From assembly GCF_003264115.1 (NCBI RefSeq), contig NZ_CP021912.1:310001-374000 (forward strand): DNA of 64,000 nt. The letters run 5' to 3'. Position 1 is the first letter of the stretch; each line of letters begins with the position of its first letter. The DNA is from Erythrobacter sp. KY5 (GTDB taxonomy: Bacteria > Pseudomonadota > Alphaproteobacteria > Sphingomonadales > Sphingomonadaceae). Below the pieces are notes generated by a model that was not told where the DNA came from, did not search any database, and was given only the letters and a program-made list of their open reading frames with translations. The position numbers were made by a program, and so were the translations under genes. Positions 3,103-39,201 of the stretch are shown here, piece by piece.

Positions 3103-5018
3103 TGAACAAGGCTGACTCCAGCTTCCAGACCGATGCTCTCATCGCCGAGGATATCGACGCCTATCTTCAGCAGCATCAGCACAAGAGCCTGCTGCGCTTC
3201 ATCACCTGCGGCAGCGTGGATGATGGCAAATCGACCCTGATCGGGCGGCTGCTCTACGATTCCAAGATGATCTTCGAGGACCAGCTTGCGAGCCTCGAAG
3301 CCGACAGCGTCAAGCACGGTACGCAAGGGGACGAGATCGACTTCGCCCTGCTGGTCGACGGCCTTGCGGCAGAGCGCGAACAGGGCATCACGATCGACGT
3401 CGCCTATCGCTTTTTCACCACCGAAAAGCGCAAATTCATCGTCGCCGACACGCCCGGCCACGAACAATACACGCGCAACATGGTGACCGGCGCATCGACC
3501 GCCGACCTTGCGGTGATCCTTGTCGACGCGAGAAAGGGCGTACTGCAACAGACACGGCGGCACAGTTACATCACCCATTTGCTCGGCATCAGGCACCTCG
3601 TGCTGGCGGTGAACAAGATGGACCTTGTTGGCTATGATAAGGCCACATTCGACCAGATCGTCGCTGACTATTCCGCATTCGCGCAAGACGTCGGCATCGA
3701 GAAATTTACCGCGATCCCGATCTCGGGCTTCAAGGGTGACAACATCACCGCATCGCCTTCCGCGAACACGCCGTGGTACAATGGCCTTGCGCTGATCGAG
3801 CATCTTGAGACGGTCGAGGTCGCCAACACCGCGGCGCAGGAACGTTCGTTTCGCATGCCGGTTCAGTGGGTCAATCGCCCCAATCTCGACTTCCGCGGAT
3901 TTGCCGGCCAGATCACCGGCGGCACGATCAAGCCGGGCGACAATGTCCGCATCGTGCCCGCTGGCAAGACCACCACGGTGAAAACCGTCACGACCTACGA
4001 TGGCGACCTTGACGAAGGCGTTGCGGGCCAGTCGGTTACGCTGACGCTCCATGACGAGGTCGATTGCTCGCGCGGGGACGTCATCGCGGCAGCCGGCGAC
4101 CCGCCCGAAGCCTCCGACCAGTTCCGCGCCACCATCGTCTGGATGGACGAAACCGCGATGAAGCCGGGGCGCGGCTATTGGCTGAAGCTTGGTAGCCAGA
4201 TGGTCACTGCCACCGTCCAGCAGCCCGAATACGAGATCGACATGGGCAGCCTCGACCATCTCGCGGCCAAGACGCTGGAATTGAATTCAATCGGTGTCGC
4301 CGAACTTGCAACCGATCGTCCGATCACTTTCGAACCTTACTCGAAGAGTCGCCAGCTTGGCGGGTTCATCCTGATCGACAAATTCACCAACGCGACCGTC
4401 GGTGCAGGGATGATCGAGTTTTCGCTCAGGCGCGCGCAGAACGTGCACTGGCAGCCGACGACCATTACCCGCGAAGAGCACGCCGCGCTCAAGAACCAGG
4501 TGCCGCGCGTGTTGTGGTTCACCGGCCTTTCCGGCTCGGGCAAGAGCACCATTGCGAACGAGGTCGAAAAGCAGCTCGCCCTGATGAACCGCCACACCTT
4601 CCTGCTCGATGGCGACAATGTCCGCCATGGTCTGAACAAGGATCTGGGCTTTACCGAGACCGACCGGATCGAGAATATCCGCCGCATTGGCGAGGTAGCC
4701 AAGCTGATGGCCGATGCGGGCCTGATCGTGCTCACCGCCTTCATCTCGCCCTTCCGGGCAGAGCGGCAGATGGTGCGCAAGATGCTGGCGCAAGGTGAGT
4801 TCATCGAGGTGTTCGTCGACACCCCTCTCGAAGTCGCCGAGCAGCGCGATGTGAAAGGGCTCTACAAGAAAGCCCGTGCCGGCGAGCTCAAGAACTTCAC
4901 CGGCATCGACAGCCCCTATGAAGCGCCCGAAAATGCGGAGATTCGCGTCAACACCGTGGACATGACCCCGGCCGAGGCTGCCGAATACATCATCAGCCAG
5001 ATAATGCCGCTCAAATGA
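3102..5018 (+). CDS. cysNC: Bifunctional sulfate adenylyltransferase GTPase subunit / APS kinase (CysN-CysC fusion)
   Basis: This is a 638-aa fusion. Residues about 30-450 are an EF-Tu-like GTPase with P-loop GSVDDGKST (37-45), [12 protein letters not shown] and NKMDLV. It drives sulfate adenylation with CysD. From about residue 455 an APS kinase follows, with Walker [10 protein letters not shown] near 473, then [11 protein letters not shown] and [13 protein letters not shown]; it makes PAPS. The start chosen is the ATG overlapping the cysD stop, which gives the expected family N-terminus. A longer reading from 2943 would run inside cysD. The end overlaps cysQ by four bases. Confidence 0.97.
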
Positions 5019-35457: not shown

Positions 35458-36390
35458 ATGAACACTCTGGTTCTGGTCGAACACGACAACACTTCTGTGG
35501 GCGACGCGACGCTTGCAGTGGTTACCGCTGCGGGCAAGCTCGGCGACGTGACCGCTCTGGTCGCTGGCAGCAATTGTGCTGGCGCTGCCGAAGCTGCTGC
35601 CAAGATTGCCGGCGTTTCGAAGGTCCTCAAGGCCGACAATGCCGCCTATGGCGAAGGCCTCGCTGAAAACGTCGCTCCGCTGGTGGCTGGCATCATGGAA
35701 GGCTACGATGCATTCCTCGCGCCTGCGACCACATCGGGCAAGAACATCGCCCCGCGCGTGGCTGCCATGCTCGACGTGATGCAGATTTCGGACATCCTCT
35801 CGGTCGAAGGCCCCAAGACCTTCACCCGTCCGATCTACGCAGGCAACGCAATCGCCACCGTCGAATCAAGCGACCCGAAGCTCGTCATTACCGTGCGCGG
35901 TACGGCCTTTGAAAAGGCCGCCGCTGAAGGTGGATCGGCGTCGGTCGAAGATGTCGCAGGTCCGGGCGATGCTGGCATCTCCAGCTTCGTCAGCCGCGAA
36001 GTCGCCGATGGCGGCGACCGCCCCGAACTGACCAGCGCAAAGGTCATCGTTTCGGGTGGCCGCGCGCTCAAGGACGGCGAAACCTTCGAGCAGATCATCA
36101 ATCCGCTCGCCGACAAGCTCGGCGCGGCCATCGGCGCTTCGCGCGCGGCGGTCGATGCGGGTTATGTCCCGAATGACTATCAGGTCGGCCAGACCGGCAA
36201 GATCGTGGCACCGGAAGTCTACATCGCGATCGGCATTTCGGGCGCAATCCAGCACCTCGCCGGCATGAAGGATTCCAAGGTCATCATCGCCATCAACAAG
36301 GACGAGGACGCGCCGATCTTCCAGGTCGCGGACATTGGCCTGGTTGCGGACCTCTTCAACGCCGTTCCGGAAGTGACGGACGCGTTGTAA
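35458..36390 (+). CDS. etfA: Electron transfer flavoprotein alpha subunit
   Basis: The 310-aa partner of EtfB carries FAD in its C-terminal domain and passes electrons to ETF-ubiquinone oxidoreductase. The FAD region [34 protein letters not shown] and [12 protein letters not shown] is intact. A GGAGAAGG element lies upstream of the ATG. A long hairpin follows the gene. Confidence 0.97.
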
Positions 36391-36406
36391 GCAATCTAAG
36401 GAATGA

Positions 36407-36442
36407 AGGTGAAGACCCGCGAGCTACTGGGGGTCTTCACCT
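36407..36442. terminator. Hairpin between etfA and the convergent 70-aa gene
   Basis: Perfect 12-bp arms, AGGTGAAGACCC and GGGTCTTCACCT, enclose a 12-base loop. No T-run follows on the plus strand, while on the minus strand the tail is T-rich (TTCATTCCTT). It may terminate both converging transcripts. The stop codon of the minus-strand gene lies inside the right arm. Confidence 0.6.
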
Positions 36443-36649
36443 AAGTCCCCGCTTGAAGCGCGCTAGGGCGTCCGGACTCCCTTCAACTTCGATCCCTCTC
36501 GAAGTGCTCTTGATGTTAAGTCCAGATCGCCTAGCCAAGGACTTTATCTCGCGTTCTGCTGCCGACTTCATGTCGCGCTCCATTGCTCTCGCGAGGTCCT
36601 TTTGTGACCGGTATGTCCGGCCACCATACTTCATTTCGAACTTGATCAT
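36437..36649 (-). CDS. Small hypothetical protein (70 aa)
   Basis: I do not recognise this 70-aa basic protein. Residues 1-10 look like a strand ([10 protein letters not shown]). A long charged helix with [20 protein letters not shown] follows, then an alpha/beta end ([15 protein letters not shown]). It starts three bases after the DUF2188 gene, so the two form a unit. The surrounding DNA is more AT-rich than the flanks. A role with nucleic acid is conceivable from its charge, but this is only a guess. Confidence 0.6.
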
Positions 36650-36652
36650 TGG

Positions 36653-36877
36653 TCATCCCTTCGGCGGGTGGGGGTCGTTGCCGTAGCTCCATGCTTCGCG
36701 AAAACGAGCGTCTCGGCCCTGAATTCGAAGTTCGGCGCCCTCGCTCATTGCTCTGTCGCGGCCATAACTGATAGCTTCGGCTTGAGTGTCAAATGCCCGA
36801 CTAAGCCGGCCATTGCCTTCGCCTCGGACACCCCAGCCTTCGCCACTTCTTACTACGTATTGATTCTTGCCTGCCAT
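36653..36877 (-). CDS. DUF2188 domain protein
   Basis: The 74-aa protein matches the short DUF2188 pattern: a [15 protein letters not shown] hairpin, [15 protein letters not shown], then [20 protein letters not shown] and a PPKG end. The family is widespread, often on accessory DNA, and of unknown function. The ATG at 36877 follows a clear GAGGTAAGT element; a longer upstream reading would cross the divergent promoter. It is divergent from the XRE gene across 73 bases of AT-rich DNA. Confidence 0.8.
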
Positions 36878-36905
36878 ACTTACCTCGTTGCAAAGTTGCG
36901 ACTCG

Positions 36906-36956
36906 ATTGCTATCTCGCAATAACAGATAAATTGCATAGGTGAAATTGCATTGCAA
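36906..36956. promoter_or_regulatory. Candidate XRE operators in the divergent promoter
   Basis: Two inverted repeats with related half-sites lie here. ATTGC-6 bases-GCAAT is at 36906-36921, and TTGCA-T-TGCAA at 36946-36956 overlaps the TTG start of the XRE gene. More TTGC copies lie between them and just upstream (near 36891-36900). This layout suits a repressor that controls itself and the divergent pair. Confidence 0.5.
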
Positions 36957-37316
36957 GAGGGGAATCCAACAAGTGGGTTCGACAACGTTCAGTTTTTTGA
37001 ACAGCTCGACCTACATCGAACTGAGAAGGGCTTGACCTGGAAGAAGGCGGCCGATGCCGCCGGGGTAAGCGCTTCTACTTTTACTCGCATCGCGCAAGGA
37101 CGAAAACCGGACGTCGACACGTTATCGGCCCTATGTCGATGGGCTCGTTTAGATGCTAATCGCTTTGTTTTGGATGAAGCGTCACGTCCGGCGCGAAAAC
37201 CGATGAACGAAGCACTTGCACTTTTCAGAGCTGACCCAAATCTATCAGAAAGTGGGAAAGTGGCGTTGGAAGCATTGGTGCGAGAAGCCTACAAGCATTT
37301 CCGCGAAGGGGCGTAG
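36951..37316 (+). CDS. XRE-family helix-turn-helix transcriptional regulator
   Basis: The 121-aa protein has a Cro/C1-type HTH at about residues 16-70 (GLTWKKAADAAGVSASTFTRIAQGRKPDVDTL, cut here into its parts: recognition helix around STFTRIAQG). A helical C-terminus follows. The likely start is TTG at 36951 with AGGTGA upstream. Its stop shares one base with the metalloprotease start. XRE plus ImmA/IrrE pairs typically act as repressor and inactivating protease. Confidence 0.82.
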   Translation: MQEGNPTSGFDNVQFFEQLDLHRTEKGLTWKKAADAAGVSASTFTRIAQGRKPDVDTLSALCRWARLDANRFVLDEASRPARKPMNEALALFRADPNLSESGKVALEALVREAYKHFREGA

Positions 37317-37879
37317 TGGCAAAGACGGCGCTCAGATGGGGCTTCAAAACAGAGGCTAATGCGTGGGCGCGTGATTTGCGCTTGGAGATGGGCTTGAATC
37401 CTGCTGCGCCCTTATGTCCTTGGAAGCTCGCGAAATATCTAGAAGTGCCAGTTTACTTGGCGAAAGACCTGTTGTCCGGCGAGCAGTTAGCGCCTCTGGA
37501 GCCTAACGATAGTGGGATTCCCTTTTCTGCCGTCACGTTCTTCGAGGGCCCCACGGCATTCGTCGTACAAAGCACATTCGTCTCGAAGAAACGTCAAGCC
37601 GCTGATCTTGCGCATGAATTGGCGCACGTCTTGTTGCGTCACGATCCCTCCGCATTTGCGTGGATTGATGGACAGCGACATTACGACGACCTTGCAGAAG
37701 CAGAGGCAAAATGGCTCGGTCCGGCTTTGCTGATTTCAGAAGAGGCCGCACTTAGAATAGTAACAAACGGATTAAGTATTGCTGACGCCTCAGATGAATA
37801 CGCGGCTTCGAAAGATGTCGTGAGAATGAGACTCAACGTGACTGGTGCACAACGGAGGCGTGGCGCGAGAGCAGCATAG
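37316..37879 (+). CDS. ImmA/IrrE family metallo-endopeptidase
   Basis: The 187-aa protein has the zinc-protease motif HELAH at residues 100-104 and a downstream acidic ligand in LAEAEAKWLG. SxKKRQAADLA precedes the motif, as in ImmA and IrrE. Known relatives cleave a cognate XRE repressor on stress (ImmA-ImmR, IrrE-DdrO). The GTG start overlaps the XRE stop by one base. Codons such as AGA, ATA, GTA and TTA near the end are unlike the neighbouring core genes and suggest acquisition. Confidence 0.88.
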   Translation: MAKTALRWGFKTEANAWARDLRLEMGLNPAAPLCPWKLAKYLEVPVYLAKDLLSGEQLAPLEPNDSGIPFSAVTFFEGPTAFVVQSTFVSKKRQAADLAHELAHVLLRHDPSAFAWIDGQRHYDDLAEAEAKWLGPALLISEEAALRIVTNGLSIADASDEYAASKDVVRMRLNVTGAQRRRGARAA

Positions 37880-37905
37880 TCATCTAGCACCCACCTTCTG
37901 GCCGC

Positions 37906-39201
37906 CTACAAAAATCCCACAATAAAGTGCAGCGTCATCCCGACGAGCCCGCCGACAAGCGTGCCGTTGATGCGGATGAACTGGAGGTCGCGGCCGACCG
38001 CGCTTTCGATGCGGCCGGTGATGGTCGTCGCATCCCAGCGCTTCACCGTTTCCGAAACGAGCGTGACGATCTCCCCGCCATAACGCGTTGCGATGCCGAC
38101 CAGCGTGCGGCGAGCGAAGCGGTTGATCTGGACCTGCAGGCGATGATCCTGTTTGAGCGCTGCACCAAGGTCGGCAAGGCCATTGCGCATCTCCGCGCCC
38201 AGCTCGCTGTCAGGATCACGCGCACGGCGGATAAGCGACTGGCGAATACGCTCCCAGACGCCCAGCCACCATTCGGCCACAGCCGGATTTTCGAGCAGGT
38301 CGCGCTTCATGTCCTCAACGCGCGCGCGGGTCTCCAGATCATGCTGGAGGTCCTGAGCCAGCTTTTCGAGGCCTTCTTCCATCTTGCCGCGCAAGGGGTG
38401 GTCGGGATCGACCAGCACCTCGGCCAGAAGCTTGTAGAGGCCATCGAGCACATTGCCCGAAATCGTCTTGTCTAGCCCGGCCCAGCGCAGCACACCGGCC
38501 ACGCGGTTGTGAATGATCTCGCGAACCGTGTCCTCGTTATCCTCAAGCGTCAGGCCAGCCCAGCGGATCAGCCCGTTGATGAGCGGCAGGTGCCGATTGT
38601 CGGTCATCGCGTTTTCGAGCATCCGTCCGGCGAGCGGGGATACCTCGAGCTTTGCCAATTGCGCGCCAAGCCCCGAACGCACCTGATTGCCGAGCCTGTC
38701 CGGGTCGAGCGATTCGAGCACTTCAGCGAGCAATTCTGCCGCGCCGCCGGTGATGCGCGATCGCGTGTCTTCGCCATTGCGATCCGGACTTTCCACGAGG
38801 AAGTCCCCGACCGCTTTCGCCACGTTCATCCCGGCCATTCGCCTTGCGACCACGGCGGGCGTCAGGAAGTTCTCCTGAAGGAACTGCGCCATCGTGTCCG
38901 CGATGCGATCCTTGTTGGATGGGATGATCGCGGTGTGCGCGATTGGCAGGCCGAGCGGGTGACGGAAGAGGGCGGTTACTGCGAACCAGTCGGCAAGTCC
39001 GCCCACCATCGCTGCTTCGGCAAAGGCGTTGACGTAGCCCCAGGCCGGATGGCCCGTCACCGCAAGGGCGTGGGTCGAAAAGAACAGCACCGCCATTGCC
39101 AGCAGCAGCCCGGTCGCCGTCCAGCGCATCCGGCGCGCGCGGTCGGCGCTCAGCGGTTCTCCGCCAAACATCAAGGGTATAGGACGCGGTGTGCTTGCCA
39201 T
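37906..39201 (-). CDS. DUF445 family membrane protein
   Basis: The 431-aa protein has two N-terminal hydrophobic segments (LLLAMAVLFFSTHALA and the YVNAFAEAAMVGGLADWFAVTALF region, given in parts). A long soluble helical region follows, with a single C-terminal hydrophobic segment. The AEAAMVGGLADWFAV motif is the family signature. Function is unknown; YjiN of E. coli belongs here. It is convergent with the ImmA gene. Confidence 0.9.
   Translation of the reverse strand: MASTPRPIPLMFGGEPLSADRARRMRWTATGLLLAMAVLFFSTHALAVTGHPAWGYVNAFAEAAMVGGLADWFAVTALFRHPLGLPIAHTAIIPSNKDRIADTMAQFLQENFLTPAVVARRMAGMNVAKAVGDFLVESPDRNGEDTRSRITGGAAELLAEVLESLDPDRLGNQVRSGLGAQLAKLEVSPLAGRMLENAMTDNRHLPLINGLIRWAGLTLEDNEDTVREIIHNRVAGVLRWAGLDKTISGNVLDGLYKLLAEVLVDPDHPLRGKMEEGLEKLAQDLQHDLETRARVEDMKRDLLENPAVAEWWLGVWERIRQSLIRRARDPDSELGAEMRNGLADLGAALKQDHRLQVQINRFARRTLVGIATRYGGEIVTLVSETVKRWDATTITGRIESAVGRDLQFIRINGTLVGGLVGMTLHFIVGFL

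Follow-up and report, generated by a model that had tools for sequence, protein, structure and literature searches.

Proteases of the ImmA/IrrE type cleave or inactivate a paired XRE repressor under stress, as in the ImmA-ImmR and IrrE-DdrO pairs. The CapHP, CapW and CapKS controllers provide a precedent for the control of immune operons after DNA damage (PMC13373217), and the same authors find YegP homologs following capKS in 57 cases and leave a global stress role open for them (PMC13373217). PprI is activated by single-stranded DNA, and a parallel between it and CapP has been drawn (PMC10904395). The combination of XRE with COG2856 was predicted in 2009 to be a type II toxin-antitoxin pair, and the authors of that prediction leaned towards a protease that cuts the repressor of a further component (PMC2701414).

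The locus described here lies in the genome of Erythrobacter sp. KY5, within a stretch of 64,000 nucleotides (contig NZ_CP021912.1, positions 310,001 to 374,000) referred to below as the window. Between etfA (35458-36390) and a DUF445 gene (37906-39201), this stretch carries an islet of ∼1.5 kb (36391-37905) made up of four small genes, an arrangement that an earlier note on this DNA had described and that the open reading frame coordinates bear out. On the plus strand, the gene of an XRE-family helix-turn-helix (HTH) repressor (36951..37316; 121 aa, with a tentative start codon) is followed by that of an ImmA/IrrE (M78) metallopeptidase (37316..37879; 187 aa), the two sharing the single base 37316, which confirms the reported one-base overlap. 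On the minus strand, the gene of a 74-aa DUF2188 protein (36653..36877) and an open reading frame encoding a 70-aa protein, termed P70 (36437..36649), form the first and second genes of a divergent operon; they are co-directional, with 3 nt between them, and are divided from the opposing XRE-ImmA by a promoter region of 73 bp (36878..36950) that extends from the DUF2188 start (36877) to the TTG of XRE (36951). The spacing of this pair was correctly noted, whereas its two genes had been called divergent from one another and in fact diverge only from XRE-ImmA. Where etfA and P70 end, their 3' termini hold a perfect inverted repeat of 12 bp (36407..36442), which overlaps the P70 stop codon and may serve as a two-way terminator.

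The composition of the islet is AT-richer than that of its neighbors, as had been claimed. Its GC content is 0.51–0.57 compared with ∼0.62 around it, and its genes fall below the 48 reference ORFs of the window in both GC3 (0.49–0.63 vs 0.72 ± 0.06) and codon adaptation (0.45–0.52 vs 0.68 ± 0.07). The codons enriched in the islet, per 1000, are AGA (22 vs 2.2), TTA (11 vs 1.0), CTA (11 vs 1.7), GTA (11 vs 4.7) and CGA (22 vs 7.2), so that AGA, TTA and GTA were rightly named as atypical, whereas ATA, also named, is not enriched (4.4 vs 3.6). Domain and profile searches of the four genes gave no known toxin domain, and only core genes flank the islet, with no integrase, phage gene, transfer gene or convincing attachment or flanking direct repeat at the site, in agreement with the earlier observation that toxin, integrase and phage genes are absent.

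In 43 of 43 genus relatives fetched, etfA and DUF445 are neighbors and none of the four islet proteins is present between them, the shortest spacer being 227 bp (G171, L047); the proposed comparison with close relatives thus finds the two core genes adjacent without the islet throughout. Spacer length across the genus ranges from 227 to 2951 bp (L036-L075, L079-L081), and the spacer holds one or two ∼300-aa predicted secreted proteins in most relatives, a FlbT-like or sigma-like gene in some, and a different two-gene insert in G173 (L057). Because other genes usually occupy it, the site is a generally variable one. Relatives of ImmA occur in four of 150 genomes of the family, this one counted, and the same four-gene arrangement is also present in another genus of the family (L078). 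On the best explanation, the islet is foreign-looking and sporadic and, judging from these features of the sequence, horizontally acquired.

The window encodes an HTH repressor and an M78 (HExxH) peptidase together, in overlapping genes. The peptidase matches Pfam Peptidase_M78 (PF06114, 2.9e-10), and its predicted catalytic residues, which include a HELAH motif with Glu-128 and Glu-130, are intact: H100, E101, H104, E128, E130, R172 and T176 are invariant in an alignment of six homologs. XRE matches HTH_31 (PF13560, 5.5e-8) and PF01381 (2.1e-6), and its C-terminal segment RADPNLS is conserved in compact homologs. The PADLOC profiles match the window pair weakly (capH 0.0013 for XRE, capP 0.018 for ImmA); the compact homolog of L111 matches capP at 1e-8, and the CapHP pairs of L153 and L093 give strong capH and capP matches. 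A PDB sequence search returned nothing useful for ImmA, and its matches for XRE, namely ClgR (0.0015) and the HTH protein 7t5u (0.068), are too weak to serve as a guide. The only common in-frame start codon of XRE is the TTG at 36951, with a purine-rich AGAGGGG downstream of it (36951-36975). An ATTGCAA box stands 17–27 nt before the assigned XRE start in homologs, and at that distance the window has no common in-frame start codon (no ATG or GTG). Since the TTG start lacks a good upstream ribosome-binding site, expression of XRE in this strain is uncertain, which counts against the best explanation.

The divergent promoter contains an exact palindrome, TTGCTATCTCGCAA (TTGC-N6-GCAA; 36907..36920), with near-matches at seven of eight positions at 36888-36901 and 36932-36945. 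The exact form occurs upstream of XRE in all nine compact XRE-ImmA loci examined (the window, L076, L077, L088, L111, L128, L162, L163, and L164), which are related and hence not independent trials; a class-wide search that used only ImmA supplied three of them (L162-L164). Its shuffle frequency is ≤0.004 at each of the nine loci, and the motif is found four times in 315,661 background bases and 94 times in this 3.3-Mb genome, or ∼1 per 35 kb. The cargo that faces the compact pair varies, comprising DUF2188 with P70, with a second small protein (P90), with a TIR protein or with multiubiquitin (with or without E1), as well as, without DUF2188, multiubiquitin and E1, YegP, or a 300-aa protein; some of these relatives sit at the promoters of TIR or multiubiquitin-E1 operons. 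A palindrome that is conserved while the cargo is exchanged is what a modular repressor predicts, and TTGC-N6-GCAA is probably the operator of XRE. In L163, the gene facing the compact pair and its palindrome (4386-4574) encodes YegP (DUF1508), a parallel to the published capKS-yegP loci. A kinship of DUF2188 with YegP was considered and gained no support, as hhalign gave a probability of 0.3% against one short DUF1508 sequence from L163, to which no homology is detectable. A second XRE subtype, upstream of which TTGC-N6-GCAA is absent (L078, L127), shares the promoter segment GACTTGTCTTAC...GAGAC.

The DUF2188 protein of the window matches Pfam PF09954 over the whole domain (4.3e-19) and the PADLOC model PDC-S16 (PDLC04941) over the model's length (1.3e-29). 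A literature search found no paper on the function, defence role or regulator of PDC-S16/DUF2188, nor one on P70. Its neighborhoods were sampled by the DUF2188 profile alone, once class-wide and once genus-wide, which gave 26 loci with usable upstream DNA, the window left out. In 11 of these a regulator faces DUF2188, namely an HTH protein with an HExxH (M78) protease in eight and a WYL regulator in three, as raw counts that ignore kinship among loci; more than half of the sampled genes lack either type, which also counts against the best explanation. With ∼1.3 M78 peptidases per genome in relatives, chance adjacency to DUF2188 would amount to a fraction of a percent. A DUF3892-like gene intervenes in two of the eight HTH-protease loci; such a gene stands between the HTH-ImmA module and DUF2188 in L115 and L116, with a Pfam match for L115.

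The genes downstream of DUF2188 include several immune effectors, with "TIR" and "CBASS" labels taken from PADLOC or record annotation and genes of unannotated loci called by an in-house ORF scorer that may miss small ones. CBASS cyclase and phospholipase genes follow it in L153 and L157 (cyclase 4e-150 and 6e-140). L153 comes from the same genus as the window, and there capH (1.9e-23) and capP (6.8e-57) face DUF2188, cyclase and phospholipase. ThsB-type TIR proteins follow it in L086, L088 and L159, some DUF2188-TIR loci having a WYL regulator, and multiubiquitin/E1 genes do so in other loci. DUF2188 proteins 69–73% identical to that of the window precede P70, P90, TIR or multiubiquitin; such related DUF2188 proteins before different genes indicate that the partner is exchanged. 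Its place ahead of TIR, CBASS and ubiquitin-like effectors elsewhere makes it probable that DUF2188 serves operons of this kind as a general accessory. The subfamily of the window protein occurs in 12 of 114 genus genomes, and relatives are carried by six viral contigs, two of which have a similar XRE facing DUF2188.

Other combinations were seen in the same survey. P90 (L077:8268-8540, L127:5453-5731) is a small family that takes the place of P70 behind DUF2188 and has no Pfam match (one tested). In L112, L119, L150, L151 and L152, the next gene after DUF2188 encodes a ∼208-aa protein that starts F(V/I/L)NCPFD (no Pfam match, one tested), and no controller gene was detected near the pair at these five loci. 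In L114, L117 and L126, it is followed by proteins of ∼390 and ∼270–315 aa (no Pfam match, one tested); HTH-ImmA faces two of these candidate immune operons, and the third ends at a contig edge. A ∼92-aa gene, Cas2/SinR-like by eye and without a Pfam match, precedes DUF2188 in L082, L085 and L090, and these loci face a sigma-like gene, a 140-aa gene and ImmA, possibly a protease-controlled sigma module.

P70 belongs to a rare family represented at nine loci, which are the window, L078, the plasmids L082-L084 and the genome contigs L090-L093. At all nine it lies directly behind DUF2188 (0–4 nt), and all nine face a regulatory module that includes an HExxH protein; every locus but the window and L078 was found by P70-only searches, so its neighbors were not selected for. 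The module is XRE-ImmA in the window and a related pair in L078, which is the recurrence elsewhere that the earlier note had proposed to look for, full-length CapH-CapP in L083 and L093 (Shimia, Pseudosulfitobacter), a sigma-like protein with a 140-aa protein and ImmA in L082 and L090 (Pfam M78 1.1e-14 in L082), and an RHH protein with two genes and a 309-aa HExxH protein in L084, L091 and L092, the last type matching M78 at 0.008, below the cut-off, in L091. Several P70 loci have genes annotated as restriction-modification, Cas9, transposase, recombinase or transfer functions in their vicinity. A single-sequence search of genome contigs gave no P70 match and a four-sequence alignment gave four loci, with none in viral contigs or in 288 other genomes of the class. 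P70 is under purifying selection, with pN of 0.05–0.18 against pS of 0.44–0.81 in close pairs. It has no Pfam family, and its AlphaFold model (pLDDT 85, ββ-α-ββ-α) has no significant PDB match. P70 and DUF2188 both lack a recognisable catalytic motif, a confident structural match and a Foldseek match at E ≤0.001; the best VIA Z scores, 4.6 and 4.4, are in the range of common arrangements, and no fold or function is claimed from them.

Taken together, we consider it fairly probable that the islet came in by horizontal transfer as a self-contained operon of controller and immune-type cargo, with a CapH/CapP-like, stress-released switch and a two-protein output. XRE would bind TTGC-N6-GCAA in the 73-bp promoter, as the shared palindrome suggests, and repress DUF2188-P70, with its own gene probably under the same control. 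The trigger would be stress, of which single-stranded DNA arising from damage or a phage infection is the likeliest form, and the CapP-CapH, PprI-DdrO and ImmA-ImmR pairs suggest by analogy that ImmA would then cleave XRE; the lifting of repression would allow DUF2188 and P70 to be made. P70, which stands in the effector slot, is probably the active output, with DUF2188 as its partner or accessory. The earlier note had likewise proposed a protease-inactivated XRE that controls a divergent DUF2188 and 70-aa output, and the regulatory part of that idea gains indirect backing from the intact catalytic residues, the palindrome at nine of nine compact loci, the conserved divergent layout and the placement of CapH/CapP before both DUF2188-CBASS and DUF2188-P70, whereas the proposals that stress is the trigger at this locus and that P70 or DUF2188 acts as the effector go beyond the evidence. 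Its suggestion of a defence output is better supported than before, as DUF2188 is PDC-S16 and stands first in TIR, CBASS and ubiquitin-like operons; to call the whole payload new overreaches, as DUF2188 is already a PADLOC candidate.

An unlikely alternative is an addiction module of the toxin-antitoxin type, formed by XRE with COG2856 (ImmA) or by DUF2188 with P70, in which one protein is toxic, the other neutralises it, and defence is incidental. The 2009 prediction names the first pair (PMC2701414), and the second consists of two small, closely spaced genes often found on plasmids, but DUF2188 stands before TIR, CBASS and ubiquitin-like genes in loci that lack P70 and so is not a dedicated P70 antitoxin, and one palindrome with swappable cargo is more in keeping with a regulator than with an antitoxin. 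The YegP gene of L163, which faces the same switch type and palindrome, together with the global stress role left open for YegP after capKS (PMC13373217), would suit a general response to DNA damage or oxidative stress, with DUF2188-P70 protecting host macromolecules rather than acting against phages. This reading is improbable, as the majority of the DUF2188 partners that can be identified are immune effectors and P70 is found on mobile elements, where its neighbors include annotated restriction-modification, Cas9 or transfer genes. Least credible, and very improbable, is that the islet is the remnant switch of a lost prophage or integrative element of the ImmA-ImmR type, with the two small genes as leftovers. 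XRE-ImmA pairs are typical of such elements, and the viral contigs with DUF2188 relatives agree with this origin; the site itself, however, is free of integrase, attachment repeat and phage gene, P70-DUF2188 is conserved as a pair with P70 under selection, and the four-gene arrangement recurs in another genus.

A broader proposal, which builds on the operon of controller and immune-type cargo and is held only tentatively, is that DUF2188 is a general, hitherto undescribed part of immune operons under a controller (CapHP, WYL, sigma-ImmA) and that DUF2188 with P70, 144 aa together, constitutes a new minimal anti-phage output in which P70 is a new effector type replacing TIR, CBASS or ubiquitin-like effectors. 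If true, this 1.5-kb unit would be an immune operon cut down to a controller, an operator and two tiny proteins, of a size that can be fully dissected, and DUF2188 would stand out as a gene that repeatedly opens CBASS, TIR and ubiquitin-like operons, so that knowing what it does would matter for every one of these. TTGC-N6-GCAA together with compact XRE-ImmA offers a handle for finding further cargo, new effectors included.

Among known systems, PprI/IrrE-DdrO and ImmA-ImmR share with the window an M78 protease with HExxH and downstream glutamates and an XRE repressor, whereas the window has neither ICE genes nor any hint of a Deinococcus-type regulon, its target apparently being the local two-gene operon. 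CapKS-YegP likewise has a controller, responsive to DNA damage, that faces a small uncharacterised protein, but there the controller is a kinase/STAS pair. PDC-S16, whose model the window DUF2188 matches, is listed by PADLOC as a candidate. CapH and CapP, which control immune operons such as CBASS and Bub, share the layout, with an HTH gene followed by an M78 gene and divergent from the cargo, and full-length pairs in relatives face DUF2188-P70 and DUF2188-CBASS. The window pair differs in being compact (a 187-aa protease against a 242-position model) and in its weak capH and capP matches, and its operator and trigger are putative; given those weak matches, and repressor cleavage proposed by analogy, it is not filed as CapH/CapP proper. 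By anatomy it resembles a CapH/CapP unit, and the islet probably belongs, as a very small example, to the class in which such a switch faces known anti-phage systems.
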